Made by a program: the position numbers and the translations under genes. 55,238 nucleotides of DNA, taken from Candidatus Kuenenia stuttgartensis. Its GTDB lineage: Bacteria; Planctomycetota; Planctomycetia; Planctomycetales; Planctomycetaceae. The notes under the pieces are model-generated. The model searched no databases and had not been told where the DNA came from. It saw nothing but the letters and a program-made list of their open reading frames with translations. The stretch is taken from the NCBI GenBank assembly GCA_945861465.1, contig CAMAVB010000015.1, positions 1 through 55,238 on the forward strand. Direction: 5' to 3'. Below are positions 25,016 through 50,481 of the stretch, piece after piece. Positions within the stretch are counted from its first letter, which is position 1. Each line of letters opens with the position of its first letter.

Positions 25016-25091
25016 TGCGGCGTCAGGATTTAACTCCGTTACAAGAATTTGTAGGCTGGTCTTGCCGAGACAACATGAAGGTATTGAACGC

Positions 25092-26441: not shown

Positions 26442-26605
26442 ATTCAAATCGTTTCCCGTAGTTCCCCAGAAGTGGTGCAGGTACGCGATCGACACGGCTT
26501 CATGCACTGCCTGGCTTGACGACCAGCGTTTTTTGTTCAGCCGCCAGGCGGGTAGCTCGATGCCAGCGTTTTCAAATTCGTACAACTTTTCAGGACCCGC
26601 ACGAG

Positions 26606-28060: not shown

Positions 28061-28120
28061 GGGAGTGCTCTGGCGTGAAGATGTTGGTGAAAGTGCTGCT
28101 GCGGCAGCTTCGTCGTATTC

Positions 28121-29968: not shown

Positions 29969-30054
29969 GGTGTGACCTTTGTCCTTCATTGGTTCGAGCC
30001 CGGCTGGACACCGGAAAAAGAAACTGAAACTTCCGGTGCACGTATTTACCGGGC

Positions 30055-31413: not shown

Positions 31414-31517
31414 CGTACTCCCAAATTGCTGTTATCGAGTAAGGTGGCTGTTCAATCAGGGCGTTCCCGAGACGCGTCGGGAATCATTCAAGGGGACTGA
31501 TGCTGACAGCCTGGATG

Positions 31518-33536
31518 TCAGTAGGTCTGCTTTGATGCCACGATCTCCAGGCATCCCAGTGCGGGCGTGATTCCGTCTGTCGGCTGCCCTCTATAGGCCA
31601 CGATCAGACCTCGATTTCCTGGTTTCGCGTCTTCTGCAACTTTGATGCGCAGTCGCAAAGCCGCCGTGGTGTTTTCCTGTGTGACCTTTTTTCCATCGAC
31701 CGTGGTGGTGTAAAAAGTCTCGTCGGTGAAAATCATCTCGGTCGTCCCCGCCTGAAGGTAGATGTAACCGATGACTTCGATTTCCACTCCTTCCCCTGTC
31801 GCTCGCACGGTCATTGCTGTCAATGGATTATTGTCATCGACGGAGACGCCCAGAACGTAGTCTTCCGATTCGCTGCCCGGCGTGAATTCGGCGGGAGCGA
31901 AAGCCAGTTGAGGCCGCTCGTTCGTCTGAGCCAGAAATATCTGTGCTCCCGTTAGAGGAAAGCCGGGGGCCGGACTGACACTTTCTGTTTTGTTCGTGAC
32001 TGCCGGATAGTCGAACAGTTCCTTCGGCAGATCCGTCGGATAGTCCGGGCTGGGCGGCCAGGGCTGCATGGGCGGCCACAGTTCGTTGCCGGGTTCGTTC
32101 TCCCATGCGCAGGCTGTCAATCCGATCTTGAACGTTTCGGCGATCTGTCCTGCATAAAGAATCGGCTTACCATCCACCAGGATGTCACTCACAGTGTATT
32201 TCGTTCCTGGGACTTCAAAAACGGCATGCAGCCCCATGCCAAAATCATTCCCTCGGATCATGTGCCAGCAGTCTTCGATCGTGAAGTCCGCGTCTGAGGG
32301 CACCTGAAAACTTGAAAAATCGGGCGGTTGAATGTAGAGGCCGACGGGATCATTCAGCGTGACCCGGTAGCCTGGCGCGAATGCCCTGACGGCTTCATTC
32401 ACGCTGTCGCCAATGTGCGGATCGCTGTTGCGATCGATACCGCCAAACTTCCCCGAACAAATCAGATTTCGGGCGGTCAGAATGGATGTTTCACTTGAAC
32501 TGGGCACCGTGCCGTCACTGTGCGTTCGCATGATCGTTGCGGCGGCCGCAAGGTAGACTTCAGCCCCCAGAGTATTCGGCGGACTGGTCAGGTGAATGGC
32601 CCCACCACTCTTCTCCGTGGCATGTGGCCCGTAGTTCCATTTGTTGATGATGTTGTAAGCCGGTCTGCCGGTCTGAGGATCGATGATCGGCGTTCCATCG
32701 GCTGCTTTTAAGTACAGATCGTCAAGTGTGACGACTTTGTCGTTGTTGTACTGGCCAGCGTTGACCAGTTCGTTATAAATCCTGACCACCACGTCGGGAT
32801 CGATCTTCCACAACGTTTCCCAGTACTCGGGATTCTCACACGTAAAGCTGACACTGGTTATCGTGGGCAGGCCACCATCTTTTGAGGGTCTGCGTGTGAC
32901 GCTCCATTCGCAGTATTCGTCGCACCAGCCGCGAGGGCCAAAGGGATTCCACGCTTTCGTCGTACCGCAATCGCTTTCGCCCTGCTTGCAAGGCTGGCCT
33001 TTAACGGCTGGCTGTGCCAGCGCGCCGCAGCAGGCATTTGCGGGGAGACATGGTAGTGGCGTACCATCCTCGAGTTCTCCATAGTCTGCGAATCGCAGAA
33101 TCTGCTCGGACGAATACCCGGCCTGTGTGCAGTAGTAAGAGACTCGATGTGGAAAGGCAATCCAGACGGGCTCTACAAGCAGCATGCCTTTGGGAACGTT
33201 CTTCCCGATCGGGTTGAAGTACATCCATCGCTCGTGGTCGTCCAGGTTCAGCCACGGATTGCCGGTAATCCCAACGTTCGACCAGCTGTCAATGTTCTCT
33301 GACCAATGCTTATGCATCAGTGCTTGTTGCTGCTTCTTCTTCGGACCACCGTGTTTCAGGAAATCCTGAATGTACGCCGGCGTGGAAAACTGTTCGAACG
33401 TCTGTCCTGCCGACACCTTGCCGAATTTCGGGACCGCAGCTTTTTTATCTGAATCGTCCTGGGCCTGCAGACAGGCGACGCATGACATCACACCGCCTAA
33501 TGTCAATCGCATGATAAATCGCAGGTTCAGATTCAT
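31518..33536 (-). CDS. Large exported protein of unknown function (module B, copy 2)
   Basis: About 672 residues from the ATG at 33536, which has GGAGAG six bases upstream; the frame continues to 33725 without ribosome site. A signal peptide is present (MRLTLGGVMSCVACLQAQ). The core matches its paralogue at 28121-29968: VWIAFPHR, GPRGWCDEYCEWSVTR, FTCENPEYWETLW, IIDPQTGRPAYNIINKWN, GGAIHLTSPPNTLG, RNSDPHIG, DPVGLYIQPP and EDCWHMIRG. It has an extra Cys-rich insert (LPCLPANACCGALAQP). The C-terminal 180 residues look like an added beta-sandwich domain. As first gene of the minus-strand module array it is read away from the divergent cytochrome c fusion gene. Confidence 0.8.
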   Translation of the reverse strand: MNLNLRFIMRLTLGGVMSCVACLQAQDDSDKKAAVPKFGKVSAGQTFEQFSTPAYIQDFLKHGGPKKKQQQALMHKHWSENIDSWSNVGITGNPWLNLDDHERWMYFNPIGKNVPKGMLLVEPVWIAFPHRVSYYCTQAGYSSEQILRFADYGELEDGTPLPCLPANACCGALAQPAVKGQPCKQGESDCGTTKAWNPFGPRGWCDEYCEWSVTRRPSKDGGLPTITSVSFTCENPEYWETLWKIDPDVVVRIYNELVNAGQYNNDKVVTLDDLYLKAADGTPIIDPQTGRPAYNIINKWNYGPHATEKSGGAIHLTSPPNTLGAEVYLAAAATIMRTHSDGTVPSSSETSILTARNLICSGKFGGIDRNSDPHIGDSVNEAVRAFAPGYRVTLNDPVGLYIQPPDFSSFQVPSDADFTIEDCWHMIRGNDFGMGLHAVFEVPGTKYTVSDILVDGKPILYAGQIAETFKIGLTACAWENEPGNELWPPMQPWPPSPDYPTDLPKELFDYPAVTNKTESVSPAPGFPLTGAQIFLAQTNERPQLAFAPAEFTPGSESEDYVLGVSVDDNNPLTAMTVRATGEGVEIEVIGYIYLQAGTTEMIFTDETFYTTTVDGKKVTQENTTAALRLRIKVAEDAKPGNRGLIVAYRGQPTDGITPALGCLEIVASKQTY

Positions 33537-34090
33537 GATCACTCTCCGTTTGGAAAAGTCTAAGTAACTTTCGCTTGTCGCTAAATCTACCATGCCGTAT
33601 GTAATGACGCCTCGATTGTCGAACACGACTGCGCGTAACCCAGGCGGTGCGTTGCCGTACCAACGTTTGAAGATGTCCCCAAACCTCCGAGGCTTGACGA
33701 TGCCTGGCGAAGAGACCTTCGTCAACGCCCTTATATATCAATGTTCTGCCTCTGAAACCGCTCTCTATGGAAATGTTTTCGGGGGATTTTCCATGTTGGT
33801 CCGTCGGCAACTCCTGATTCTGCCACCCCCCCATTCTGGGGGTACACCCTGGTTTGGGGCAATTCGCGGCACTCGGCTTCAGCGACGCCGTGCCTCACTG
33901 GAATCTTCGATCACTGGAATTCTCAAGATCGGACTAAACGGCACCGACCAGGAAGTTACGAAGCGGGTACCATTGAGGCGGCTTGCAGACAAACCGCTGC
34001 GGCTCTGTGGCATACCGTTATGAGTGCGAACGATTTTGTGTCTGTTGACTTAGCGTAAGTTGACACACTTGCAAAGGTGCGACAATCGAC
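33537..34090. other. Divergent promoter region
   Basis: 554 bases between the module array (minus) and the cytochrome c fusion gene (plus). It contains a C-run hairpin (CCCCCCATTCTGGGGG, about 33825-33842). TTGACA near 34059 is followed 17 bases on by a poor -10 match, CAATCG. A 143-codon frame on the plus strand (33592-34023) shows no domain and is probably chance. Confidence 0.45.
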
Positions 34091-35776
34091 GTGCGTAAAC
34101 CGGATCTTCAATTTCGCCGCACTTTCCGAATCAGGACAGTAAGTCTGCTGGCTATGGTGTTGGTTGCCGGTCTCGTCGGTTTCTACGTCTGGCCGAGCGA
34201 TTTCGGCCACGCGGATCCGGAGCTGTCGAAGGTTGAAGATTCGAGGCAATCCACGTCTGTCGAAATTGCCACAGATTCCGGAAGTCTGACCCTGACCGAG
34301 GCACGTGGTCGTCAAATCTACCAAACGGGTGAGAGTTCGTCCGGAGTTCCGATTGTGGCGAACCTGGGTGATTCACAGACCGGGATCCCTGGCGCAGCGC
34401 TGGTTTGTCTGAACTGCCATGGAGCTGACGGTCATGGTGAGCCAGAAGGTGGTATCTATCCGTCGGTCGTCACGTGGAGTGCGCTGACTCGCCCGTATGT
34501 GGCACGCCTTGAAGGGGGACGTCGCCGAGAGCCGTACAATGAACGCCTGCTGCGGCGCGCGATAACGATGGGAATCGATCCCTCCGGAAATCCATTGAAT
34601 CGAGCCATGCCGCGATACAATCTTTCGCGGCAGGACCTTGACGATTTGATTGCGTGGCTGCGAAAAATTGGCACAGATCTGCCACCCGGCGTGACGGAGA
34701 CCAGCATTCGCGTCGGTGTCCTCCTTCCGCCGACCGAGACGTTTGCAGAACTCAACCATGCCGTCAGTGCCACGCTGGCTGCCTTTTTTGAACAGTTGAA
34801 CAGTTCCGGTGGTCTGTATTCGAGGCGCATTGATGTTCGCACGGCCGCTGCGCCGTCGGATCCACAACAACGAATGGCTGCCCTGCAAAAACTGCTGGAG
34901 CGGGAAGAGCCGTTCGTGGTGTTGAACGTCTGGATGGAGGGCGCAGAATCTGAGCTTCGTCCATCGCTGAGCAACGTTTCTGTTCCGGTGATTTGCCCGA
35001 TGACGGTCGCGCCCCCAATCACGGAGGCGCCGTTCTCGAACGTGTTTCATCTGTATTCCGGTCTGCGCGGACAGGTGAGCGTGCTGGCGAATCTTCATCG
35101 ACGGCGGTCAGGAGTTGAATCTGCGCTGACAGCCGTGATCTGCCGCGAATCGGGACGGTCGCGAAAACTGGCTGACGTTGTCAGCAGTTCGCTGGTCGGA
35201 TCGAATCCCAGTGTCGTCCCGGTCGATGATCAGGCGGCAACTGAGTCGCTGGCCCGCCGAATGAAACAGGATGATGTACGAGTCGTGTTTCTGATTGACT
35301 ACGGTGATGTGGAGCGACAACTGTTGCGTGAAGCGGCTCAGATTGGCTGGCTGCCAGCGATATTCGCGTCTGGTTCCCTGACGGGTCGAGAAGTGCTTGA
35401 CGCGCCGGAAGCGTTTCAAGGCCGGATCATGCTGGCGTTCTGTGGCTCGGGCGGAACGCTGGGTGCCTCAGACGAACGTTTTCGGGAATTCGTCGAGCGG
35501 CACAAACTGGCCGACATGGACGCCGCAGTTGTTCAGGACACATACGCCTCGGCCAGCATTCTGGTGAAGGCATTGACCGACGCGGGAAGCGACGTGCGCC
35601 ATGCCACTTTGATCGAATCACTGGAACAGATGCATGAATTCAACACGGGAGTTCTGTCTCCTGTAAGCTTTGGTCCCAACCGCCGAGTGGGGATTCGTGC
35701 GGTCTCGGTATTCTCCGTTGACCTCCGCAGGCAGCAACTGATTCTAGTCCACGAACAGGAAGCGGAGACGGATTAG
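34091..35776 (+). CDS. Cytochrome c domain fused to periplasmic ligand-binding (PBP type 1) domain
   Basis: 561 residues from a GTG start. The N-terminus has one membrane or signal segment (TVSLLAMVLVAGLVGFYVW). A class I cytochrome c domain covers about 70-200, with CLNCHGADGHG at 106-116 and a probable Met ligand in NRAMPRYNLS. From about 205 the chain reads as a type 1 periplasmic binding protein of the branched-chain amino-acid receptor family: IRVGVLLPPTETFAELNHA, EQLNSSGGLYSRRIDV, VPVICPMTVAPPIT, and VQDTYASASILVKALTDAG. No ABC permease or ATPase genes are nearby. The fusion suggests a heme sensor or electron carrier that responds to a small ligand. It converges with the Sco gene, 10 bases apart. 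Confidence 0.88.
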   Translation: MRKPDLQFRRTFRIRTVSLLAMVLVAGLVGFYVWPSDFGHADPELSKVEDSRQSTSVEIATDSGSLTLTEARGRQIYQTGESSSGVPIVANLGDSQTGIPGAALVCLNCHGADGHGEPEGGIYPSVVTWSALTRPYVARLEGGRRREPYNERLLRRAITMGIDPSGNPLNRAMPRYNLSRQDLDDLIAWLRKIGTDLPPGVTETSIRVGVLLPPTETFAELNHAVSATLAAFFEQLNSSGGLYSRRIDVRTAAAPSDPQQRMAALQKLLEREEPFVVLNVWMEGAESELRPSLSNVSVPVICPMTVAPPITEAPFSNVFHLYSGLRGQVSVLANLHRRRSGVESALTAVICRESGRSRKLADVVSSSLVGSNPSVVPVDDQAATESLARRMKQDDVRVVFLIDYGDVERQLLREAAQIGWLPAIFASGSLTGREVLDAPEAFQGRIMLAFCGSGGTLGASDERFREFVERHKLADMDAAVVQDTYASASILVKALTDAGSDVRHATLIESLEQMHEFNTGVLSPVSFGPNRRVGIRAVSVFSVDLRRQQLILVHEQEAETD

Positions 35777-35786
35777 CCACGTCTGT

Positions 35787-37163
35787 TTACGGCGTCTCGA
35801 CTTCGGCACCGGAATCGTCAAGTACGCTCTGAACAATCAGAGCCAGCTCGGCGACCGGTGCCGTTCCGTGGGCTTTTTTCCAGAGACCGGTCTTGTCATT
35901 TCCGATGATGAACACGTTGGAATGTTTATCAATGTCGGTCGTGAACTGGCCGATCTTCTGGAGAGCGAACTCCACGTTCCTCGCTTCGCCGGTGACGAAG
36001 TGCCAGCCGGGACGCGCTTTGAACTGGTCCGCATACGTAGCCAGTTTCGACGGCGTATCATTTGACGGATCCACGGTAACGGATACCAACTGCAACTGAT
36101 CACCAAATCGATCCTGCAATGCGGCCACTGCCGCGACCAGTTTCGGGCAGGCGCCTTTACACGACGTGAAGAAAGTGTGAATCACGACCACGCGGCCTTT
36201 GATCAGATCATTGTACAACCGCAATTCCTGACCGTGCTGATTGACAAGTTTGACGTCTGTGAAATACCTAAGGGCAGCGGATTCCGTAGTCGGATCTTCC
36301 GGCAGACTTTGGACAGGCGGGGCGGCCTTCGTGTCGGGGAGAGACGCTGCTTCCGTCGGGAGCGACTCTGCGGAACGGTCTCCGTCGGCGACTGCCGAGA
36401 CCGCGAACGACTCAGACTCTGCATCCGAAACATGATTCGCAGCCGTTGAATTGCCAGCGAGATCACCTCTCGCTGCCTGCAGCTTCAGCAACAGTTCGGC
36501 GAGGGACTCGACCGACGTCAGCCCATGCACGCGCTGCCATTTGCCGGTCTTCTGATCACCGAACAAGATGAATGGCGAGTGGTCATTCTTGTCTGCGGTG
36601 AAGACCTCTAATTCCTGCAGAACAGTATCGATCTGCTGCTTTTCTCCCGTCAACAGTGCCCACCCTGGAAGGTCGCTGAATGGTCCGCTCCATGCCCGGA
36701 GTCGCTCGGGCGTATCGACGACCGGATCGACGGTAATGGAAATCAACTGGATGTCGCTTCCACCATTTTTCGAAAGTGTCTTTCTGAGTGTGCCAAAGTT
36801 GGCTCCCATCGGCGGGCAGATGCCCTTGCATTTCGTGAACAGAAAATTCAAGGCGACTACGTTGCCGTCTGTCAGAGATCTCAGTTGTACTTCTTCGCCA
36901 AGCTGATTGATCAGCACCGCGTCGGGTATGCGAAGCGCACTGGCGAGCGGTTCGACGACGGGAGGGCCAGGGGACACCTCAGCGACTGTCGCGGCAGGCT
37001 GATCGGAAACGACATCCGTCGATGTATCGGGCGTCTCGCGCCCGCACCCGCACCCGGCAGCGCTTAGAGTCACAACAGCGATGATCACACACGCGGCCGC
37101 GCGGCCGCGAAATCGTGTGATCGATCTACGGCTGCAAAATGGATCATACATGCGTTCGATCAC
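35787..37163 (-). CDS. Lipoprotein with two SCO1/SenC copper-chaperone domains
   Basis: 458 residues. A lipobox (LSAAGC, Cys38) follows the export segment. Domain 1 (about 80-230) has the copper-binding Cys112 and Cys116 in TKCKGICPP and His195 in NDHSPFIL. Domain 2 (about 300-450) has Cys335 and Cys339 in TSCKGACP and His414 in DKHSNVFI. A Ser/Glu/Ala-rich linker joins them. Both domains keep the complete CxxxC-His set and the DPxxDTP motif, so each should bind copper. Sco proteins usually have one domain and metallate cytochrome oxidase CuA; here the operon partner is a multicopper oxidase. The GTG start overlaps the stop of the propeller gene (GTGA), which implies translational coupling; an ATG at 37151 is the alternative start. 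Confidence 0.95.
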   Translation of the reverse strand: MIERMYDPFCSRRSITRFRGRAAACVIIAVVTLSAAGCGCGRETPDTSTDVVSDQPAATVAEVSPGPPVVEPLASALRIPDAVLINQLGEEVQLRSLTDGNVVALNFLFTKCKGICPPMGANFGTLRKTLSKNGGSDIQLISITVDPVVDTPERLRAWSGPFSDLPGWALLTGEKQQIDTVLQELEVFTADKNDHSPFILFGDQKTGKWQRVHGLTSVESLAELLLKLQAARGDLAGNSTAANHVSDAESESFAVSAVADGDRSAESLPTEAASLPDTKAAPPVQSLPEDPTTESAALRYFTDVKLVNQHGQELRLYNDLIKGRVVVIHTFFTSCKGACPKLVAAVAALQDRFGDQLQLVSVTVDPSNDTPSKLATYADQFKARPGWHFVTGEARNVEFALQKIGQFTTDIDKHSNVFIIGNDKTGLWKKAHGTAPVAELALIVQSVLDDSGAEVETP

Positions 37164-39268
37164 GGTTCAGAGTCCCTGAGTTGTGTTGAATCATTGGCAG
37201 CGGTGGTGTCAGCCGTTGCCGATGACGGCGCGGCCGCGACCTGCAGAACCGCCGAATGCTGACGACCGTCGCTGAGTCCCAGTTCCGGCGACTGGAGATA
37301 CAGATAGTAAGTCCCCTGACGAGGCGGAATGAAGGTCAACGTCCCTTCGCCGCCTTTGACGGAATTCAACTTCAGTTTCGAGTGCCAGACTCCGGGCGCT
37401 AACATGACGCGAACGTTGCAGCGACCGAGCACTTCCGAGGCGACTGGCTGATCGCCACGCTCAACACTGAATGCGACGTGAACAGGCTTCCCGGCGACGA
37501 CAGAATCGCCGTTGACCGAAGTCCTGATCTCCAGTCGTTCTCGTTTGATCGCGGCAACACGTTGCGGATTTTCATGCACGTCAATCGAAAACGCATGAAC
37601 GACCCGCGGCGTGTCCAGAAGAAATACAACATCGTATCGCCCCGGCTGTGACAGACGCGCGGTTGTTTCATACACCCCCTCCCCGAAGCGTTCCTTCAGA
37701 CTCCGATCGACCGCCAGCACGGCGCGGGGTTCCTGATCGTAGTTGGTAAAACTGCCCATCGGGGCTGCCATGCCTTCCTTGTAGAAATACACCGCGCGAT
37801 CCGCAGGGTTGGCAACCAGCACCGCGTTTGCTCCTGGAGCCTGCACGATCGCCGGGGCGAGACTGGACAGGAGTCCTTCGTTCGGTCGTTTCTGTCCGCC
37901 CGGAAACTCAACCAGTGACACAGCATGACCACGTTCGCCGAGATCTTTCAAGGGAATCATCTGTACGATCTCACTTCCCAGATGTCGCACATAAGCCAGT
38001 TCGTCTGAGAACGCAATCTGATGCGGATGTAACTGCACAGGAGCCTCTCGCACGACCTGTGCGATCGACGAATCCACAATCAGGATCCGGTCGTTTTGGC
38101 TGTCGACGACAAATGCAAATCGGCCTTTCGGCTCAAAACGAATCTCACCGAGCGCTGGCCCCTGGCCTTGAACTTCGGTTGACAGCACACCTTGATCGTT
38201 CGAGATGTTCGTCTTCGGCGGCGGAACGGCGATTCGTTGCGTGATTCGGCCACGAACATTGAAGGATGCGATTCCATCAGAGCTTGCGTGAGTTACATAG
38301 ACCTGATTCGCTCTTTTCCCCCATGCAATCGAAACAGGCCGACGACCGGTTTCAATAACCGATTTGATCTTCAGCGACGCGACATCCACGATCGTGACTG
38401 TGCCCGATTCTGAATTTGTGACGAAGGCATGACGATCGTCCGGATCGAAGGCGAGTTCGTGTGTGCCGCTGCCGGTCGGGATTTCGGCGGCGATGTCCAG
38501 CGACTCCGCTTCGATAACAGTCACGCCGGAATCAACTCCATTCGTCGCAACCCACAGGTAATGCCCGTCCGGCTGCAGAGCCACGCGACCAGGAGTCTGT
38601 TTTACGGGAATCGTTTCGACAATCTTCCAGTCGGCCGTTGAGATCACTGCGATGCTGCGCGATGCCGGTATGGAGACGAAGACGCGGGACTGATCAGAAG
38701 TCAGTACCCAGTCCTCACCAGGACCATCAAGCTGCAGCATGGCCAACAGCTTTGTGCCACCGAATGTGAACAGCGGATCGACGATGGTAACAGTCCCGTC
38801 GTCGTTCAGGCTCATCACGAAATACGAATTCAGATTCAGCTCGGGCTGGGACAGCAGGCTGTGGCGAATAAACGATTCTGCCTTCCGCACCGCCATCTCG
38901 TGAGTTGTCGCCTCGTTCGATTCCGCTCGGTCGACCCACGCCGCCGGATAGGCGTTGCGGACGGCGGTACCCGTTGCGTCAGTGATTCGAAATCGAAAAT
39001 GCAGATCGTCGCCAGCGTAAAACTCATTGGCGGAATCGCCAACCGGGTCGGCGAAAAACGCCACCTCAATACCGTCGCGTTCGACAGTCTGCTGCAGCGT
39101 TCCGAGCGATCTCGGAGTCGTCACTGTTTCGTCGGTAACAGGTCGAGTTTCTGCGGACGGCGCTTCTGACGCGTCTGAAGCCGTTCGTGGCGTCGAGGAA
39201 CCGCCACATCCGGTGAATGCGGCCAACGTCAGGAAAAGGATCAGAGCGTACCTTCGCCGTCCGATCAT
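37160..39268 (-). CDS. YVTN-type beta-propeller lipoprotein
   Basis: 702 residues with a lipobox (LAAFTGC). Residues about 150-440 form a beta-propeller of YVTN/cytochrome-D1-like repeats: VFVSIPASRSIAVISTADW, YLWVATNGVDSGVTVIEAES, HAFVTNSESGTVTIVDVAS and FAFVVDSQNDRILIVDSS. No heme site is present. The N-terminal region (VERDGIEVAFFADPVGD) and the C-terminus (EGTLTFIPPRQGTYYLYLQS) look like separate beta-sandwich domains. Its start overlaps the oxidase stop by 4 bases (ATGA) and its stop overlaps the Sco start. It is probably a scaffold or binding partner of the oxidase on the cell surface; the exact role is inferred from linkage. Confidence 0.88.
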   Translation of the reverse strand: MIGRRRYALILFLTLAAFTGCGGSSTPRTASDASEAPSAETRPVTDETVTTPRSLGTLQQTVERDGIEVAFFADPVGDSANEFYAGDDLHFRFRITDATGTAVRNAYPAAWVDRAESNEATTHEMAVRKAESFIRHSLLSQPELNLNSYFVMSLNDDGTVTIVDPLFTFGGTKLLAMLQLDGPGEDWVLTSDQSRVFVSIPASRSIAVISTADWKIVETIPVKQTPGRVALQPDGHYLWVATNGVDSGVTVIEAESLDIAAEIPTGSGTHELAFDPDDRHAFVTNSESGTVTIVDVASLKIKSVIETGRRPVSIAWGKRANQVYVTHASSDGIASFNVRGRITQRIAVPPPKTNISNDQGVLSTEVQGQGPALGEIRFEPKGRFAFVVDSQNDRILIVDSSIAQVVREAPVQLHPHQIAFSDELAYVRHLGSEIVQMIPLKDLGERGHAVSLVEFPGGQKRPNEGLLSSLAPAIVQAPGANAVLVANPADRAVYFYKEGMAAPMGSFTNYDQEPRAVLAVDRSLKERFGEGVYETTARLSQPGRYDVVFLLDTPRVVHAFSIDVHENPQRVAAIKRERLEIRTSVNGDSVVAGKPVHVAFSVERGDQPVASEVLGRCNVRVMLAPGVWHSKLKLNSVKGGEGTLTFIPPRQGTYYLYLQSPELGLSDGRQHSAVLQVAAAPSSATADTTAANDSTQLRDSEP

Positions 39269-42200
39269 GGTTGCGCCTCAACCGCAGTCGATGAATCGCG
39301 ATCGTCCAGGGCAGAGTTGGTAGTCAACGGGGTGACGGAAAAACTGGAATCAGGCACGGGAACGTTGTACGGAGGCTGCCCGGAATCGGGAGCGGATCCG
39401 CCATGCTGTGAAATGACGCGAATTCCTGAACCGCCGCGCAGAAGTTCCGCTTTGACACTGAACTGCCAGCGCCCGGTGCCGGACTCGACCACAGCTTGTG
39501 CAATCTCTGTGAGCATCCCGTTCGCCGCTTCCGAATGCAACGTGACACTCTCCGCAAACTCGCCCGTTCCTGGATGCACTGTATTGTGCCCGTGGACTTT
39601 CACCTTGGCGTTCTTTTCGACACGAACATCATCAATCGTCACGCCGTCTTTTCCGGCTTCCAGCACGCGCACGATTCCCCATTGCCCGGTCCGCGTGTTG
39701 TAAAGCACGTGGTACAGATAGTCTCCCTTAACTCCAAACGGTCCGCCGGCACTCGGCAGTACCATGTTGATCGGTTCATACGGCATGAATCGCTGCGTGC
39801 CAAGTACCTGCGACAGTTTGTTGTTACCAATCTTTGTGGATTGCTTCACATAAGGCTCCTCCTGCCAGTTGTGGCCATGCACGGCAATGACCTGACCTTC
39901 CTCGCCATCACCACCGGGATACAACCAGCGAAGACGCAGTGGTTTGCCCGCTTCAACAGGAAACACTGGAGTCTGAGGATCGCCACCAACGCGTGAATTG
40001 GCATGCACGTCCGCAGTCTCGACGCGATTGATGAGAACGTCAAACGGGACATCCTGGCGATTGTTGGATTCATCGTACGTCACGAGATTAAGGAACACGC
40101 TGAGCTCGTCGCCGCGCAAGACGACACTCAACGGCCAGGTGATTGCCGTCACGGAATTGGTGTCGGTAATCTGCCAGACGCTGCCCGCCTGTGTCGCGCT
40201 GACCTGTGTTCCGCCATCGAGTCCCATTCCTTCGTCCGCAAGTCTCGTCCGCAATTCTGCAGGCAGCCGACCGGCGTTCAACTCGCTGACCCAGTTCTCT
40301 CCGACTTGTGTTCTGAGTTTCAGCATTCGGACGGGATAGCGGTAGTTGAAGGGTTCGCTGCGGTAATTGACTCCACCGACCGCGTGAAATGTCCCGGCGA
40401 ATCCGTCCGAAGTCAGATACTGATCCGGCTGGCCGTGCGGAGTCTTTCCAGAAAACATCGTGATGTCGTCCTGAATCACGATGACTCCCTCACGGAACAG
40501 AAACTTTCTGTCTTTGCCGTCTCCCTCGTAAATGTTTGCGGCCGCATGCGTATTGCTGTCGATCTTCCACGTCGAGCCCTGCGGTTCGACAATCAACGCT
40601 CCGACAAGCCCCATCGTGTGCTGGATCAATCCGTCGGCCGGAGTCAGATTGATGGCTCCAAATTCGATCGGGGTAGCCTTCATCACCGGCGTCGATTTGC
40701 CGTTTGACGCGGGCGCCATTTCAACTTCCAATTTGCCGGCATACCAGCACATCGTCTTCTTCGAACCTGGTTCAACAGTCTGGATCGGGTTGAACCCTAC
40801 GTTGGCACCGTCGCCCTGTGTGATGTCGCAGGCGACCAATTGAGCATTCAACCCGACAGTGGCAGACATCCGCAGCGGCATCGACGGATACACAAAGACT
40901 CCTGTACCGCGCACCTGCATCCCGAACGTGACATCCGAACCAGGATTCGAAATCGTCCACACACCCGGGCTGACGGGATCCACGGTGGCCTGCCTGGCCA
41001 GCGGAACATCGTTGTCTGCGAATGCCTGGCGCACGCCTGGCGGAATCGTCCCCTCGTTGAACGCTGCGCTCGAATCGACCGGAACTTCAAACGACGGAAT
41101 AATTCCGAATGGACTCTGAGCTGTCCCGGCATACTGAAACGCTTTCGCTTTCGGATCGCAGCGGTTCTCCAGCGTCACTTCAATCCAGTCTCCCGCACAG
41201 GCTCGCAGAATCACGGGCTCAATCGGAACGTTCTCGCGCAGTTTGTTGTTGCCGTCGAGATCTTCCGCGTGAACGTAGATTACCGCATATGGATTCTGCA
41301 GCAGATCAGGAGTACCGGGCGGAAGATTCCGTCCGTCGGTATTAAACTGTTTCGGATCGTCGGACAGAACCTGACCTCGCGAATTGTAAATCAATGAACC
41401 TTTTGGCAGTGCCTGTTCGGCGGTGATCGCCACCAGGTGGAACCTGCGGACTTCGGCATCCGGCGGGCAGGTGATCTGCAATCCGCCGGGCGTCTTTCCG
41501 TCCGGATTGTTGGGCAACGGCTTCAGGTCCTTGAGCAGCCCGTGCGATCCGTCGTAGGCACGCATCAGTCCCCACGATCCACTGACAAGCCCCGGTGTGC
41601 CGGCGCTGGATTCGTAAAGATAGTCGGCAAACGGCCGGTCCGGTGTCGATCGCGCCGGCGGCAGGCGGAACAGCATCTCGTAATGCTCAGACAGCGACAT
41701 CCCCTGAACATTGCGGTAGCCGGAATTCTGAAAGCTGGGTTCGAAGAGCCATTTGACTCCATGCACGGTGAACGAATGCGCCTGTTCGTGCGCACCGACG
41801 AGCGTGCGAATCTGGATGCGGTCGTTTTCGTAGGCTCGCAGCAACGGTGTGTACGGGTCATATGCCTGGGCTCCGGTCTCGCCCACGGGAGTCAGATACG
41901 GTGGAAACTTAAACCCGTCCGGGTCATCGGGATTGATCGGCGAACCAGGTTCCGGTTGACGATTCAAGTCTTCGTCCAGACGTTTGATCGACCGAAATGC
42001 TGACGCCAGATCAACCGCTTCGGCGCGCTGCTGAGGAGTCAGAGCAGCGTCGTGTCCGGGACTGGACGAGATGCGCAGCGGGACCGGTTCTGAGCGGTAA
42101 CTGACATTCCAGTGGCCACCGTCCGGAAATGAACTGACCAAAGTCGGAGACGGTCCGCCGTTGACCACGTTGTTGGGATCCGCCGGCGGATTCACCGTGT

Positions 42201-45200
42201 GCAGCGGGTCGGCCCATGCGACAAAATTCACGGACGCGGTCATCATCAGCCGATAGACTGCCAGCCGCTTCGGTTCGCCTTCCACGTAAACCGCGTACTC
42301 TTCGCCATTCTGTTCGACAACCCAGTCGGGACCGTTGTCTGACTTGCGAACTGTCGCCGTAACAGAAAGCGCAATCCCTTTCTCCTGGAAGGCGTCACAG
42401 ACCGGTCCGGGAATGATTCCCTGCGCAAGAGACTCCGCATTTTCGATGCCCGCGGTGACAATGACCTGCCGACGAATTCTAAAGACTTCGGCCGTCGCCG
42501 GATAATCGGAGTCGACTTCACCAATCTCCCACTCGAGACCCTTTTGCAGAACATTGACACCTGCGTCAGCAGAAAGTGTCACACCGTACCTGGCAATCGC
42601 AGCCCGGAGTTCGAGTGTGACTTTTTTGTCATCAAGATCCCTCGACCAGGAGTCCTCAAGATTGCACAGGAATCCGGAAACTTCACCCATTTTGCTGCGA
42701 CTGTCGCTGTTGTAGGTCAGGCCAAAGTCCTGCAGTTGAAACGCAAACTCGCGATAGCTGTCCGACTTGTTGGCTGTCTCAATATTTGCCTGCCAGCTCG
42801 TCGGACCGCCGTCCGCACGTTTCCTCACGTCGTACATCTGTTCGCCCGTGATCGGGTCGTACCACTTTGACCCGGTCGGTTCGATCAGCATTCCGGCGTA
42901 AAGTCCGACCTGCTGATGCGTCGACGGACTGAAGTGATCGTGCGTGAACACCGTCCGCAGAGTGCGGTCGCGACCTGCATTGTCGAACAGAGGATCAGTG
43001 TCGAAGCATTGAATGGTGGTTTGCGCTCCATTCCAGTTCTGATACGGAGGCGGTGAACCGAACAGTTCTTTGTTATAGGGCCGCGCCGCGAGTTTCTTTT
43101 GTTTGTCTGAACGAAACTGCGTCGCCCAATCGAACGTGTACAGACCGCCCATGGCGTTCATCGCGTCGATTCGTTCGCGGACTTCATCCGGGCTGAATGT
43201 TCCGTCTTCGTAATTGAATCCGTTGGCGGCTCCATCCGAAGACGTGACGTCGAACTTGACCAGATGAATGTGCTGCCCGATCACATCGGTCGGTGTACGC
43301 ACCTGAAAGTCGTCCAGTTCGTAATACGCCGGAACGAGGTTGGTGTGCCAGAATTCGATGGTCTCATCAGAATTCGCGCGGAAGAAAAACGGCTGTGGAG
43401 GTCGCTCTCCTCCGACTGTCGGCTTGACGTCGTTCCACAGCGTGATGAAGCGCTGCTGCGGATAGTGCCAGCCATTTTTGTTGAACACGACATCCATCTG
43501 AATCGCCGCGGCCTGATACCGCCGCGTGTTGATGTTGGAATTGCCGTTCTGATCCACACCAGGTGCGGCATACGGGGCACCGGGAATCGGAGGCAAACCA
43601 TTTAAAGTAAAGTTACCAGGATCGCCGTTGGGCAGGTACGAAGCATGCGTGCGCGTCGCATGTGTCTGCATCGCCACTTTCTCAATGGCCGTCCCGTCTT
43701 CCGGAAGTTCAAACGCAACCAAGCCGCCGTCAATCAGCTTGCGATTCGGATTCGTCTTATCGTCGCTGTCGTAGCGCACAAAGTCCTTGGTAAAATCCCA
43801 GCGAGTGTGCAGTTCTTTGACGATCTTGCCGTCCAGAACCAAATGACGCGGCAGGCCGCCATCCAGCAGCACTTTCTTTCCCTGATGAGGACCATCTTCG
43901 TACAGCTTCGGCTGACCCGGGCTGATTTCTTCCCATGCAAAGTCCATTGGCGGATGTGGTGGACGATGACCGGCCACGCCTGGGATGAAAAACGGATAGC
44001 CGGGATTACGGTAAACCATGTTGCCATCCCCATCCGGCGTTTTCAACGCTTCGGCGCGACGACCATTGTCAATAAGTCGAACCTTTCCGGGCAGCGGAGC
44101 CATCGCCACTGTGGGCAGAGGAACGATTGCCGGAATCGGAACGCCGGCCTCGATCTCGCCGTCCGGCAATGCTCGCGCACCTTCCACAGGAATGCCGTCT
44201 GCATCCAGCTGAGTGCCCTGTTCAAACACGTCATGCACGCGCCACATCCCCCACATACCGGCCGCAAAATGTGGATACAGGTGGCAGTGAAAGATGGAAT
44301 CGCCCACTGTCAGATTTCGATTACCGCTGCCATTGTGGGCGATTTCCAGTGTGAACGTAGCTCCGGCGTTGATCATCTGAGAATCCAGATAAGCACTGTT
44401 GTCGCTGTTCGGAGTGCGCAGCCACTGATGCGCATGCAGATGATGCACATGGACAATACCCGAACCGGTATTGGCAATTCGGAACTTCACGCGGTCTCGC
44501 ATGTAGCTGTGATACACGTTTGAGGGATCGTCCGGATAGAAAACTTTCGTGGCCTTGTGTTTGCTGTCCAGCGGCTTGAATTGAGGTCCATCCAGCGTCA
44601 GGTTTTCTTCAACAATCTGCTGACCGTCTGCCGGGCTGTTGATGGTCTGGTTGGGAGCGTTTGCTGGTACGTCCACTACCATCGCCGGATCGCCCACAGC
44701 CCATGAACTCAGGAAGAACTCTTCGAATTTCAGGTCAACCGCGTCTTTGTTGCCCATCGGACCAACACCAATGCGGTTGGCCAGAATCTCCGCTCCAATT
44801 CCCGCACAGCCGTAGTTGATTGCGAATGCATCGCCCCCTGCCGTATAGGACCCTGCCAGAGCCGGATCAGCAAACTGTTCGAATGCCTGAACGCCGAAAA
44901 AATTGTGATAGAGAATCACGAATTCGCGGTACGGACTTCTGCGATTTGGATAAACCGGGTTCTCGCGGAATGAAGCAGCCGTGTTGGTCGATGGAAAACT
45001 ACCGGCGTCAGGGCCTGTGATGATTGCTGTCAGGTCGTTGTGCACAAATTCCAGTGCATCCGCGCCCTGCGCGCCGGGATGTTTCATCAGCATGTTGAGC
45101 ACGGGAAATCCGGCGTGACGGTGGCCTGCCGGGAATACTGCCTGATAGTCCACCAATGGATGCAGACCAAGTGTAGACAGGTAACCATCGACCCTCAGAA

Positions 45201-46074
45201 CTGTCGCATGTTTGTCTGTCTGCCGATCTGGATCCATCGTCGTCAGTGTCCACAGCTTACTTCCGGTTTTGGGATCAGTCCGCTGCTGTGACTCGTCATC
45301 CAGATCAGGCTCCAGCGTCATAAACTGTTTTGCGAGATATTCGGGATCGTCCGGAAACGTCGCCAGCTTCAGGTCTTGTTCCGTGACCTGACTGCGATAC
45401 CACTCCGCGCCCTCCGGCTGTACTGTCACCATTCCGAACAGGCCATTGTCGAGCTGCCCGTTCGAGTGATCGAAGTGGCTGTGAATCATAAACTCGCCTT
45501 CGGCACTGGCGTAGAACTTCAGGATTTTCGTCTCCCCGGGGCGAGCCATGCTGCCGGTCGGACCTGGATTCGCACCCGTCCATGAACCATCGCTGTCGAT
45601 ACTGCCAACAAGATTCAGCCCTGCAGGATGGAAGCCCACATCGCGTGTCATTGTCTGAATGGGGGCGATCACTGTTTCTGCCATGGGCGACAACAGATTA
45701 GTGAAATGCACCTCCATGCAGTCACCAACATTCATCCGCAGCACGATGGGACGCGGTCGTTTGTCGGAACGCAGTCGAACGTGTCCAGGTTCCAGTTTTT
45801 GATCCCGCTCCAGCGGGTCGTTGCCGTATTTGTCCTGCGGCGTGTCGAGACTCACCACGTCGCGTCGCAGGGCATACATCATGCCCTGAGGCTGAGCGGC
45901 TCCCATGCGATTCCACATCCATGGCTGTTCGAGCGCCACCACATCAGCGCGAAATGTGCGTTTGATTTGCTGTTGATCGTCCGCAGCGGCAGTTGGCGGG
46001 CATCCGAGGCAACACGCAATCGACATTAAGACGCTGAAGCAACCGCGCAGGTGAGACATCGTGCGGGCAGACAT
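39265..46074 (-). CDS. Giant multicopper oxidase, MnxG/MofA-like, about 2269 residues
   Basis: The ATG at 46074 has AGAAGGAG five bases upstream and starts a signal peptide (MSHLRGCFSVLMSIACCLGC); the frame runs open to 46254. Several cupredoxin domains follow. Copper-site candidates are HSHFDH (about 198-203), HVHHLHAHQW (542-551) and HCHLYPHFAAGM (596-607, the classic HCHxxxHxxxM type 1/type 3 motif). Others are HIHLVKFD (about 932), THDHFSPSTHQQVGLYAGM (about 1042), AHSFTVHGVKW (about 1428) and AVHGHNW (about 2062). The N-terminal ADVVALEQPW, GMMYALRRDVV and RPRPIVLRMNVGDC resemble, from memory, the large oxidases linked to Mn(II) oxidation. Ordinary laccases have 500-600 residues. A module of about 75 residues occurs four times in the second half. 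Mn(II) as substrate is inference. Confidence 0.93.
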   Translation of the reverse strand: MSARTMSHLRGCFSVLMSIACCLGCPPTAAADDQQQIKRTFRADVVALEQPWMWNRMGAAQPQGMMYALRRDVVSLDTPQDKYGNDPLERDQKLEPGHVRLRSDKRPRPIVLRMNVGDCMEVHFTNLLSPMAETVIAPIQTMTRDVGFHPAGLNLVGSIDSDGSWTGANPGPTGSMARPGETKILKFYASAEGEFMIHSHFDHSNGQLDNGLFGMVTVQPEGAEWYRSQVTEQDLKLATFPDDPEYLAKQFMTLEPDLDDESQQRTDPKTGSKLWTLTTMDPDRQTDKHATVLRVDGYLSTLGLHPLVDYQAVFPAGHRHAGFPVLNMLMKHPGAQGADALEFVHNDLTAIITGPDAGSFPSTNTAASFRENPVYPNRRSPYREFVILYHNFFGVQAFEQFADPALAGSYTAGGDAFAINYGCAGIGAEILANRIGVGPMGNKDAVDLKFEEFFLSSWAVGDPAMVVDVPANAPNQTINSPADGQQIVEENLTLDGPQFKPLDSKHKATKVFYPDDPSNVYHSYMRDRVKFRIANTGSGIVHVHHLHAHQWLRTPNSDNSAYLDSQMINAGATFTLEIAHNGSGNRNLTVGDSIFHCHLYPHFAAGMWGMWRVHDVFEQGTQLDADGIPVEGARALPDGEIEAGVPIPAIVPLPTVAMAPLPGKVRLIDNGRRAEALKTPDGDGNMVYRNPGYPFFIPGVAGHRPPHPPMDFAWEEISPGQPKLYEDGPHQGKKVLLDGGLPRHLVLDGKIVKELHTRWDFTKDFVRYDSDDKTNPNRKLIDGGLVAFELPEDGTAIEKVAMQTHATRTHASYLPNGDPGNFTLNGLPPIPGAPYAAPGVDQNGNSNINTRRYQAAAIQMDVVFNKNGWHYPQQRFITLWNDVKPTVGGERPPQPFFFRANSDETIEFWHTNLVPAYYELDDFQVRTPTDVIGQHIHLVKFDVTSSDGAANGFNYEDGTFSPDEVRERIDAMNAMGGLYTFDWATQFRSDKQKKLAARPYNKELFGSPPPYQNWNGAQTTIQCFDTDPLFDNAGRDRTLRTVFTHDHFSPSTHQQVGLYAGMLIEPTGSKWYDPITGEQMYDVRKRADGGPTSWQANIETANKSDSYREFAFQLQDFGLTYNSDSRSKMGEVSGFLCNLEDSWSRDLDDKKVTLELRAAIARYGVTLSADAGVNVLQKGLEWEIGEVDSDYPATAEVFRIRRQVIVTAGIENAESLAQGIIPGPVCDAFQEKGIALSVTATVRKSDNGPDWVVEQNGEEYAVYVEGEPKRLAVYRLMMTASVNFVAWADPLHTVNPPADPNNVVNGGPSPTLVSSFPDGGHWNVSYRSEPVPLRISSSPGHDAALTPQQRAEAVDLASAFRSIKRLDEDLNRQPEPGSPINPDDPDGFKFPPYLTPVGETGAQAYDPYTPLLRAYENDRIQIRTLVGAHEQAHSFTVHGVKWLFEPSFQNSGYRNVQGMSLSEHYEMLFRLPPARSTPDRPFADYLYESSAGTPGLVSGSWGLMRAYDGSHGLLKDLKPLPNNPDGKTPGGLQITCPPDAEVRRFHLVAITAEQALPKGSLIYNSRGQVLSDDPKQFNTDGRNLPPGTPDLLQNPYAVIYVHAEDLDGNNKLRENVPIEPVILRACAGDWIEVTLENRCDPKAKAFQYAGTAQSPFGIIPSFEVPVDSSAAFNEGTIPPGVRQAFADNDVPLARQATVDPVSPGVWTISNPGSDVTFGMQVRGTGVFVYPSMPLRMSATVGLNAQLVACDITQGDGANVGFNPIQTVEPGSKKTMCWYAGKLEVEMAPASNGKSTPVMKATPIEFGAINLTPADGLIQHTMGLVGALIVEPQGSTWKIDSNTHAAANIYEGDGKDRKFLFREGVIVIQDDITMFSGKTPHGQPDQYLTSDGFAGTFHAVGGVNYRSEPFNYRYPVRMLKLRTQVGENWVSELNAGRLPAELRTRLADEGMGLDGGTQVSATQAGSVWQITDTNSVTAITWPLSVVLRGDELSVFLNLVTYDESNNRQDVPFDVLINRVETADVHANSRVGGDPQTPVFPVEAGKPLRLRWLYPGGDGEEGQVIAVHGHNWQEEPYVKQSTKIGNNKLSQVLGTQRFMPYEPINMVLPSAGGPFGVKGDYLYHVLYNTRTGQWGIVRVLEAGKDGVTIDDVRVEKNAKVKVHGHNTVHPGTGEFAESVTLHSEAANGMLTEIAQAVVESGTGRWQFSVKAELLRGGSGIRVISQHGGSAPDSGQPPYNVPVPDSSFSVTPLTTNSALDDRDSSTAVEAQP

Positions 46075-46174
46075 GACAACTCCTTCTTCACTAGCCGTTG
46101 TTGTGACCCATGTTGCGAATATTTGATCTCGCCGCGTCGTGATGCAAGTCAGCGGCATCGTCCAGTCAGAGCGG

Positions 46175-47938
46175 TTACTGTGCCGAAAGCTCCGTTGTGC
46201 CGGTTTCCGGATTGAGCCAATACTGATCGGGGACGCCACCGTAGGCGGATTCATTCTGATCCGCCTTGAGAAGATTGAGAGTTGGAAACAAAAGTCGGAA
46301 TTCCGGCTCGAAGATCTGGCCCTGCGGATGCTGTGAAATCTGAGACCGGAAGACTTCGATGCGTCTTTGGCTCAACAACCGCACCCAGCCCGTGACAATG
46401 TCCTGATTTTCAGCGTTCTTCTGCAGTGTTTTGACGAGTGCCGCAGCCTGCTTCTGATGATAGGCGATGTCGCGTTTCGGATCGGTCAGATTCGCGAGGA
46501 GTTCGGCGGCAGCAGGACTGGAGGATGCCTCGAGTCGGCCTTTGAACTCTTCCAGCCAGTCATCGTCCGCTCGATCAGGAACCAACTGCAGAAGGTTGCA
46601 GCGTTCCTTCGAGAACATGGGACGTGTCATATCAACTGCGAGCACATCGATCACGAATTCCATATCGACAATTTTCGCTTTGACCATCGCTTCCGCCAAC
46701 AGCATGTCTGAATGAGACTTGACGGGACTAGAAAATCCATGATCCGCGTCGATCCCGATCGAATCGGAACTCTGAACATCGAAAAACTGGCTCTGGAAAT
46801 GATTGAGCGCGTTGACGTACAGATCCTTTTTAATCTCGACGAACTTCGGACCGTCAGGCAGTAGACGCGGATCAACGAAGAAACCGACTGGTGCCTGGAC
46901 GACTTTCGCATTTGGGTCACCCAGCGGTGTGGTATCAGACGCAAGATTCACTTCCTGCTCGCAGAAAATCACGCGAAGTTGTTCCTGCAGCGTCAGCTTG
47001 CCGCGCTCGTCCATGTAGCGTTTGCTGCTGAACAGTTTTGTGTATCCATCGTCAATCCACTTTGAGAAGACACTGGCGTCCACAACATCATCCAGGATGC
47101 CCTGAATCGCAGGCTGAATGACCAGCGAACCCAGCGGCAACGGGCGTTCTTTGCGCCACCACATGTTGTGGGGAAACGCCAGTTCCTTCATGATGGGGCC
47201 ACCGTTCATGTGGCAACCTGAGCAACGAAGCCGGGGACCGCCCTGATCCTGCTTTGCCAGATCCGGATTCCTGCCGAACAGCGGTTCGCCGGGATTTGAA
47301 TTTCGCCAGACGTTTTTGATGTCATCGAGAATGTCCAGCGAACTTCCCCTGTAAAACCAGGTGCCTCCCTGACCATTTCCGCGAATTTCGTAGAATCGAA
47401 ACATTCCGATGGTCGGGTCCCAGACAACGGATTCGAGAAGTAAAGCATTATCACTCCCTTGATTCTGCTCCTGGAGAACGCTGGTGCCAGCCGTGTTATT
47501 GTTGACGGCGACCTGAAAGTGGCCGAAAAACCAGTCGCCTGGTTCGATTTTGTTGCCCTCGTAATCTCCTGTGACAGCTTCAAAAAAGCTGAACAGCCCC
47601 TGCGGCAGCGGATTGTTGAAGCCACGATCAGCAACCATCGCCGGATTCAGTTTCAGGCCGAGCTGCTTCACCAGATTTCGAAACTCAAGCGCGTTATTTG
47701 GACAGAATTTCTGCGACGTCACGATCTTGAATAACGGATCTCCGTGCGCACCTGCGGGCAACGTCTCGCCCGTGTTGTTGTTCTGGATCCCACACCCAAA
47801 ACCAGTCGGGGGATTCTCCTGGGCGCGCACCGGCATCGCCCACGCAGCAAGTGTCATCGAGATAATGGCCCCATGCAAAACATGGCGCACCCAGCTAAGC
47901 CGCACGGCGCATTGAGGACTCGACATTGTGTTCATCAT
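46175..47938 (-). CDS. Secreted c-type cytochrome
   Basis: 587 residues from the ATG at 47938, which has AAAGGA upstream; the frame extends to 48052 into a repeat. A signal peptide is visible (GAIISMTLAAWAMPVRAQ). One heme site, CSGCH, occurs at about residue 239-243 in RCSGCHMNGGPIMKELAF. The surrounding 580 residues are unlike small cytochromes. They include WFFGHFQVAVNN, VVWDPTIGMFRFYEIRG and PHNMWWRKERPLP. It is 100 bases upstream of the giant oxidase and on the same strand, so it is a candidate electron acceptor for it. I do not recognise a named family. A second heme site was not found. Confidence 0.88.
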   Translation of the reverse strand: MMNTMSSPQCAVRLSWVRHVLHGAIISMTLAAWAMPVRAQENPPTGFGCGIQNNNTGETLPAGAHGDPLFKIVTSQKFCPNNALEFRNLVKQLGLKLNPAMVADRGFNNPLPQGLFSFFEAVTGDYEGNKIEPGDWFFGHFQVAVNNNTAGTSVLQEQNQGSDNALLLESVVWDPTIGMFRFYEIRGNGQGGTWFYRGSSLDILDDIKNVWRNSNPGEPLFGRNPDLAKQDQGGPRLRCSGCHMNGGPIMKELAFPHNMWWRKERPLPLGSLVIQPAIQGILDDVVDASVFSKWIDDGYTKLFSSKRYMDERGKLTLQEQLRVIFCEQEVNLASDTTPLGDPNAKVVQAPVGFFVDPRLLPDGPKFVEIKKDLYVNALNHFQSQFFDVQSSDSIGIDADHGFSSPVKSHSDMLLAEAMVKAKIVDMEFVIDVLAVDMTRPMFSKERCNLLQLVPDRADDDWLEEFKGRLEASSSPAAAELLANLTDPKRDIAYHQKQAAALVKTLQKNAENQDIVTGWVRLLSQRRIEVFRSQISQHPQGQIFEPEFRLLFPTLNLLKADQNESAYGGVPDQYWLNPETGTTELSAQ

Positions 47939-47962
47939 GTGAATTCCTTTGTGGTGTCTGCT

Positions 47963-48111
47963 TAGTTCGACTGTCCCAGATTCACGACCAGGAGGAGGAA
48001 AATGCGTTGAAAAAGGTGTCTGGAACTTTGGAGGCATCAGAAAACTTCGCAAAAACCTGATGCCGGAGAGTTCCAGACACCTTTTTCAACCAATCTGGGA
48101 CAGTCGAATTA
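47963..48111. repeat. Nested inverted-repeat element within the oxidase operon
   Basis: Outer arms TAGTTCGACTGTCCCAGATT (47963-47982) and AATCTGGGACAGTCGAATTA (48092-48111) pair at 19 of 20. Inside, 48006-48027 and 48069-48090 are perfect 22-base inverted copies (left arm starts GTTGAAAAAGGTGTCTGG), extended by GCATCAG / CTGATGC. There is no coding frame. The look is that of a MITE. Confidence 0.85.
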
Positions 48112-48187
48112 GTTAGAGGGTTTGGTGCTTGTCTGTCTGTGCACTTTTTCGGAGCGTCGAAGGACGTCCGCCGTTGAATTCGGTACG

Positions 48188-49015
48188 TCAGTTCATTTTG
48201 CCGGGAAACAGGACGACCAGATCTTCTGTCTTAAGAGTGTTAACTGGGAAGGCCCAGATCTCGTCAGGATTGTTCTTCCGATGGGAGACCGCCCCGGTCT
48301 GCGGGTCAACGACGATCCGCTCAACGAATTCAAGTGCCTGGCCCGTTTTGTTTGGCAGAGTCGAAAACTGAATCTCCCAGTGTTTGGAGCCCCCAAGCAC
48401 GTAACCGTGTGAAACCTCGCAATCCAGGTATTCCAGAATCTGATCCCGGGAGGCATTAGTTTTCCTGATCAGGTCGGCCATCGAATTGGCCATCGGGAGA
48501 TCCTTTGGCCGATTTCGCGCATAGATAAATTCATCACCGTTCACTGATAGAATTTCATGAATGCGGGTGGTCCCGTCCGGGAGTTTGCGCAACACCTTCA
48601 CACCGAAGTACCAGCCGTCTCCGCTGGCCAGGTTCCACCAGTGCTCCATATAAGACGACTGGACGCCGTGCTCATACATGTTTCTCCCAGCCGCAATCTC
48701 GATCCTGCCAATGTCGATGGACCCGTCTGGCGGTTGATAGTCGATTTCGTGATGCCAGGTCGTGACGTCTCCTTCGACAGTCGTAAATCCCGAGAATCCC
48801 TCCTGGGCATAGAGCGTTCCCAACTCTGCGTCGGTCAATTCATGCAGAGGGCACGAATAATTCGGGCGGTCTTTGGGAATCCGACAGTCGCCGAACAGCG
48901 TGGGTGTCTGGATGTTTCGGACGTTGACCGATCGGTCCGGCTTACTTCCATTGGAAACGATGTAGAGACGCTCCCATGCCGCAATCAGCCATTCCGGAAC
49001 TGGTTCCTGAGTCAT
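48188..49015 (-). CDS. HRI1-like cytoplasmic protein
   Basis: 275 residues from the ATG at 49015, with AGGAGG nine bases upstream; an ATG at 49024 is too close to that site. No signal peptide. The sequence reads like the lipocalin-like HRI1 group: WERLYIVSNGSKPDRSVNVR, NIQTPTLFGDCRIPKDRP, YAQEGFSGFTTVEGDVTTWH, EIDYQPPDGSIDIGRIEI and MYEHGVQSSYMEHWW. The biochemical role of this group is unknown. It is the first gene of the minus-strand run leading to the cytochrome and giant oxidase, separated by the nested repeat, so co-transcription is uncertain. The family call is from motif memory. Confidence 0.65.
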   Translation of the reverse strand: MTQEPVPEWLIAAWERLYIVSNGSKPDRSVNVRNIQTPTLFGDCRIPKDRPNYSCPLHELTDAELGTLYAQEGFSGFTTVEGDVTTWHHEIDYQPPDGSIDIGRIEIAAGRNMYEHGVQSSYMEHWWNLASGDGWYFGVKVLRKLPDGTTRIHEILSVNGDEFIYARNRPKDLPMANSMADLIRKTNASRDQILEYLDCEVSHGYVLGGSKHWEIQFSTLPNKTGQALEFVERIVVDPQTGAVSHRKNNPDEIWAFPVNTLKTEDLVVLFPGKMN

Positions 49016-49251
49016 TCGAGTCATCCTCCTGGTGTATTCGGCTGAAGTTCAAGCTGTTGCCCACTAACAGCAGGCAATCACGCGGCACTCGAACCAGAAA
49101 TACAAAGGGAAGGGGTGACACCATTGCCGCCTCAGTCGTGTCCGACAGACTCGTATGATGGGGTTAAGCGACGAATTATGCAAGCAAGTCTTCCGGATAT
49201 CGTAAACGCAAATTGCGGATAACTTCCGCACGCCGCTAAACGAATCGGGGA

Positions 49252-50373: not shown

Positions 50374-50481
50374 GAAATATGGTTTTCTAAGGGCGAAATG
50401 AAGGAAGTAGGGTGTGTGCAGCGGACCGAAACACACCAATGCTCGCTCCTGATCGAGCACAGTCTATGTCGAGTGACGTCT

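Follow-up and report, generated by a model that had tools for sequence, protein, structure and literature searches.

A probable MnxG-type metal-oxidation module on a genomic insertion in Candidatus Kuenenia stuttgartensis

A giant multicopper oxidase of the MnxG family is encoded in Candidatus Kuenenia stuttgartensis next to a beta-propeller lipoprotein, a double-Sco lipoprotein and a cytochrome c/solute-binding-protein (SBP) fusion, and from its gene content the locus is probably an MnxG-type metal-oxidation (Mn) module. The module lies on a 22.8-kb insertion for which two congeners present a clean empty site, an observation that is new here. The window, that is, the whole stretch of DNA analysed, is the 55,238-nt contig CAMAVB010000015.1 of assembly GCA_945861465.1, in forward-strand numbering. 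The insertion and the genes at and beside the oxidase are as follows.

26433..49248, no strand: insertion (genomic island) of ~22.8 kb holding the module; congeners G014 and G011 show the empty site
34091..35776, + strand: predicted membrane-anchored monohaem cytochrome c/SBP fusion, 561 aa (PF00034, PF13458)
35787..37163, - strand: lipoprotein with two Sco copper-chaperone domains, 458 aa (PF02630, E=1.2e-37, two stretches)
37160..39268, - strand: YVTN/lactonase-type beta-propeller lipoprotein, 702 aa (TIGR02276, TIGR03866, PF10282)
39265..46074, - strand: giant multicopper oxidase, MnxG family, predicted secreted, 2269 aa; reading frame open to 46254
46175..48052, - strand: CXXCH protein, 625 aa, without Pfam family; likely start near 47938
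48188..49024, - strand: protein without assigned family, 278 aa; no homologue in 96 related loci

The oxidase reading frame (39265-46254, - strand) gives 2329 aa when counted from its first ATG. Its first 80 nt are shared with the upstream gene. Counting from the ATG at 46074 instead gives a protein of 2269 aa with a better signal peptide; this is the likely start, 100 nt from the upstream CXXCH gene. The beginning of that gene is itself probably near 47938, because the upstream part of its TTG-started frame (~47938-48052) is a dispersed repeat, found elsewhere in the genome at up to 94% protein identity. An earlier note on this DNA had placed the oxidase, propeller, Sco and CXXCH genes on the - strand, coupled the first three by 4-base overlaps, described two Sco domains in the lipoprotein and seen HCHLYPHFAAGM in an oxidase of about 2269 residues. 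These readings stand: the positions are right, the motif is there, and the length agrees with a start at 46074. The stop/start overlaps between the oxidase and propeller genes (39265-39268) and between the propeller and Sco genes (37160-37163) are exactly 4 bases each, so that the three genes are probably cotranscribed, and the lipoprotein has two complete CxxxC...H domains of the Pfam SCO1-SenC type (CKGIC/H and CKGAC/H).

The family assignment is carried by several comparisons. The NCBIfam model NF041487 (manganese-oxidizing multicopper oxidase MnxG) matches the oxidase with E=0 and 1095.3 bits; because its curated equivalog cut-off is 3100 bits, a value exceeded by our Pseudomonas sagittaria control (3757 bits), we treat the protein as a member of the MnxG family and not as an equivalog. 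By sequence, the sole strong match in the PDB is 9bxa, the MnxG of Bacillus sp. PL-12 (E=5.6e-75), which aligns in collinear pieces spanning oxidase residues 571-2205. The same structure is the best Foldseek match of the oxidase model (E 6.9e-35). The catalytic half (residues 92-1196) was modelled with a pLDDT of 86.1 and a pTM of 0.91, and VIA comparison of this model with 9bxa gave a Z of 25.0 over 631 residues at 3.0 A. Homologues of other phyla share 44-52% identity with the oxidase. Used alone, the PF07732 profile gave no match in the genome at its threshold despite the presence of the gene, and single Pfam domains are therefore poor probes for this oxidase family.

The copper ligands lie in four motifs (residue numbers follow the 2329-aa reading frame).

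44428..44451, - strand: HVHHLHAH, T1 His602 and trinuclear His605 and His607; invariant in 101 aligned homologues
44254..44289, - strand: HCHLYPHFAAGM, trinuclear His656 and His658, T1 Cys657, His662 and Met667; invariant in 101 aligned homologues
43264..43272, - strand: HIH, trinuclear His995 and His997; 100 of 101 rows, the remaining row being a gap
42934..42942, - strand: HDH, trinuclear His1105 and His1107; 100 of 101 rows, the remaining row being a gap

All 12 ligands are thus invariant in 100 or 101 of the 101 aligned homologues, among them the Bacillus MnxG orthologue from a Priestia plasmid. H602, C657, H662 and M667 would bind the T1 copper, and H605, H607, H656, H658, H995, H997, H1105 and H1107 the trinuclear cluster. 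The Cys-containing T1 motif (HCHxxxHxxxxM) occurs in a single copy, and, as in Bacillus MnxG, the motifs follow a permuted order when compared with three-domain laccases. Since the ligands are conserved and the fold is matched, we conclude that the protein is, on sequence and model, a distant MnxG-family multicopper oxidase with one predicted T1 and one predicted trinuclear site; its six domains we take from its collinearity with Bacillus MnxG and from background knowledge of that protein. The kinship with MnxG-type giant multicopper oxidases proposed in the earlier note is borne out by this, as is the complete set of T1 and trinuclear ligands that it had suggested looking for.

The oxidase also contains a module, about 45-65 residues long, in four copies (residues 1206-1268, 1271-1335, 1730-1790 and 1987-2054), each recognised by a profile match.

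42451..42639, - strand: clade-specific small repeat module, copy A
42250..42444, - strand: clade-specific small repeat module, copy B
40885..41067, - strand: clade-specific small repeat module, copy C
40093..40296, - strand: clade-specific small repeat module, copy D

This four-copy, clade-specific repeat is described here for the first time. Sister oxidases have one to three copies, and within its own genome the module is confined to the oxidase gene. An in-frame mobile DNA repeat was considered as the origin of the four copies and rejected, as there is no repeat at the DNA level and the module occurs only in this oxidase and its sisters. A weak match (E=1.9e-6) was seen in a 526-aa frame of another genome of the class (L148, G040:C4:816443-816574).

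Within the family, the window oxidase stands apart from Pseudomonas MnxG and from the Jettenia-type planctomycetes. In a tree of 628 columns of the catalytic core, made by quick searches and with groups named after the first tree had been seen, it falls in a clade of 10 rows (SH-aLRT 99) together with Acidobacteriota, Gammaproteobacteria and one verrucomicrobial MAG. The AU test rejected a clade with the Jettenia-type planctomycetes (p=0.0009) and a clade with the MnxG of Pseudomonas, Aromatoleum, Ramlibacter and Caldimonas (p=5e-12). As regards the phylogeny that the earlier note had called for, the oxidase thus lies, within the MnxG family, outside the Pseudomonas/Betaproteobacteria MnxG clade. 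The oxidase family is rare in Planctomycetota (12 of 392 genomes); within the genus it was found in one genome out of 18. Mn-oxidase genes have already been reported from planctomycete MAGs (PMC10732223).

The neighbourhood of the oxidase is widely conserved. When 84,980 species genomes were scanned, at least 573 confirmed relatives of the oxidase were found; 79 loci were read, and partners were counted in 61 loci with at least 5 kb downstream of the oxidase. A propeller homologue is present in 55 of the 61 loci, a Sco homologue in 47 and a cytochrome/SBP homologue in 46, and all three accompany the oxidase in 44, distributed over many phyla. The propeller gene follows the oxidase gene in 51 loci, and the commonest orders are oxidase, propeller, one or two Sco genes and cytochrome/SBP. 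This order is also seen in plasmid records from Alphaproteobacteria, where the Sco and c-type cytochrome genes are annotated as such. Several loci were unusual in other respects: Methylobacter luteus has two MnxG-like oxidases in tandem (L086, 9878-20890), in Sulfidibacter corallicola a divergent pair (L054) is complemented by a third locus (L055), and a MAG assigned to Methanoperedens, where an O2-dependent oxidase would be unexpected, encodes an MnxG-like oxidase followed downstream by a propeller gene (L079, 2832-10236).

The same survey redraws the limits of the module. The earlier note had taken the CXXCH protein upstream of the oxidase for the cytochrome of the unit. The protein is indeed encoded there (46175-48052), but no homologue of it, of the 278-aa protein or of the four genes at 26606-33725 was found when 96 related loci were compared. 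The CXXCH and 278-aa proteins were therefore dropped as module members. The recurrence of neighbours expected in the earlier note consequently holds for the propeller and Sco proteins and fails for the CXXCH protein. The conserved cytochrome is instead the product of 34091-35776, which adjoins the interval considered previously, one gene beyond its end; it is encoded on the opposite strand and converges with the Sco gene. Its inversion made it seem separate from the module; the gene is on the opposite strand in four further loci. The CxxCH motif and the axial Met-Pro are invariant in 40 of 40 aligned homologues, the SBP part belongs to Peripla_BP_6, and a model (pLDDT 85.9) shows a cytochrome-like N-terminal part joined to a binding protein of the leucine/aromatic type. 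Because the island has no recognised gene for an ABC permease or ATPase, our guess is that this protein is a sensor or redox partner rather than a transporter component.

Bacterial Mn(II) oxidases of the MnxG and MofA types are unusually large multicopper oxidases, and Sco proteins deliver copper. The earlier note had proposed that the genes form one extracytoplasmic metal-oxidation unit, and MnxG family membership, copper ligands and conserved partners all speak for this, with its CXXCH cytochrome removed. In the mechanism that we envisage, the oxidase would be exported from the cytoplasm and loaded with copper outside it by the Sco domains. Mn(II) would hand electrons singly to the T1 copper; the trinuclear site would receive them and reduce O2 with them, and oxide of Mn(III)/Mn(IV) would form outside the cell. 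The propeller and cytochrome/SBP proteins may act as docking, redox or sensing partners. As the oxidase lies outside the Pseudomonas-type MnxG clade, it is only through family and operon identity that Mn(II) is suggested as its substrate.

The same architecture could serve another substrate, such as Fe(II), Cu(I), phenolics or another reductant, if the family is broader than Mn oxidation. We regard this as rather unlikely. It would fit the separation of the window clade from tested MnxG and the spread of the relatives, which were found in more than ten phyla, with methanotrophs and the Methanoperedens MAG among them, and thus more widely than known Mn oxidisers would lead one to expect; against it, the partners are of the same types as those of an Mn oxidase operon. 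To our knowledge, the only family members that have been tested, MnxG of Pseudomonas and Bacillus, both oxidise Mn(II), and we know of no assayed member of the oxidase's own clade. Should a member of this clade prove to oxidise Mn(II), gene-based surveys of Mn oxidisers would need to be widened well past the current MnxG cut-off.

A more far-reaching version, which we consider unlikely, is that the locus is a laterally moved, self-contained metal-oxidation island in which the cytochrome c/SBP protein is an obligatory redox or sensing partner, the additional CXXCH proteins perhaps extending it to an electron-harvesting pathway in the planctomycete. An obligatory partner of this kind would explain why Mn oxidation in Pseudomonas requires cytochrome c maturation. 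A multicopper oxidase that has a trinuclear site transfers electrons directly to O2 and does not depend on a cytochrome, which makes it very unlikely that the locus works as an electron-transfer unit, the cytochrome c/SBP protein accepting electrons from the oxidase or donating to it, with oxidation coupled to respiration and not only to O2. What this idea has in its favour is the conservation of the protein beside the oxidase, its invariant haem ligands and a role of cytochrome c maturation genes in Mn oxidation by P. putida MnB1 (1998 work, as relayed in PMC11409713). The cytochrome c/SBP fusion is a conserved MnxG partner and a candidate for explaining the loss of Mn oxidation in cytochrome c maturation mutants.

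In the preferred reading, that of an MnxG-type metal-oxidation module, the genes lie together on one inserted block. The MFS transporter gene (24717-26441, + strand) and the enolase-family gene (49252-50460, - strand) that flank the block are 22.8 kb apart in the window and adjacent in the two congeners in which the empty site was read. In DNA alignments with G014, window positions 49249 and 26432 are separated by two bases; with G011, positions 49252 and 26425 are separated by 69 bases. Since the flanks are directly joined in these genomes, both lack the block (26433-49248) on which the module is found. Both flanks are 85-89% identical to the congeners, and contamination of the assembly is thus an unlikely source of the block. 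Most likely, as gene distribution and phylogeny suggest, the island was acquired laterally from a non-planctomycete lineage. That the block is ancestral and was lost from the congeners would suit edges at which no integrase, transposase, direct or target-site repeat or tRNA was found (the only tRNA in the window is at 3728-3815), but it is highly improbable given that the oxidase is present in none of the 17 other genomes of the genus, groups with Acidobacteriota and others, and is rejected from the Jettenia-type clade.

The remainder of the island has features of its own. The - strand genes at 26606-33725 form two paralogous pairs without Pfam family: proteins of 735 and 651 aa that are 37% identical and have the motifs GPRGWxDEYCEW and CENPEYW in common, and proteins of 452 and 484 aa that are 33% identical and have a C-terminal CXXCH. 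Homologous pairs occur together on plasmid 1 of Paracoccus denitrificans, directly after a tyrosinase-family gene. At the left edge, 26442-26605 may be a - strand coding remnant (YGSFTGKEVARAGPEKLYEFENAGIELPAW...), perhaps of a truncated gene.

It follows from the survey that the whole mnxG-type module, and not the oxidase gene alone, is spread over many phyla. It can occupy a planctomycete genome as one inserted block, and the congeners without the block offer natural controls.

Known systems resemble the locus to different degrees. The mof operon of Leptothrix discophora and Rubrivivax A210 encodes the large Mn oxidase MofA, a cytochrome c protein and a metallochaperone (PMC8218464). By gene content, on which this likeness is based, it shares the last two with the window and differs in its MofB (mip-type) gene. 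Bacillus MnxG (9bxa; about 1230 aa, about 30% identity) is collinear with the window oxidase and has the same permuted motif order and identical copper ligands. However, loci of the Bacillus MnxEFG type have two small MnxE/MnxF-like reading frames upstream (Priestia control, L141) and are without the propeller/Sco/cytochrome set, whereas the window oxidase is preceded by 100 nt and the 625-aa CXXCH gene, and not directly by MnxE and MnxF genes. Jettenia (L096), an anammox planctomycete of the same phylum, has the full set of oxidase, propeller, fused double Sco and cytochrome/SBP, but with an oxidase of a different clade and all genes in one direction.

The closest counterpart is the mnxG operon of P. 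putida GB-1, in which MnxG is the main Mn oxidase according to deletion work (PMC11930936). The operon comprises mnxG, a YVTN propeller, two Sco genes, an SBP and SurA (PMC11409713, Table 4; PMC8218464, Fig. 2), the SBP being an amino-acid ABC substrate-binding protein with a cytochrome c domain (PMC11409713, Table 4). The window module matches five of these six genes, the exception being SurA, a domain of which was found in none of the island reading frames of at least 150 aa; nor was an MnxS/MnxR-like regulator recognised on the island. Compared with GB-1, both Sco genes are fused and the cytochrome/SBP gene is inverted, and the oxidase differs from Pseudomonas MnxG in falling well below the equivalog cut-off, in belonging to another clade and in its four extra repeat modules. 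In P. sagittaria (L126), the same five components were seen directly, and the copper ligands of its MnxG are the same as those of the window oxidase.
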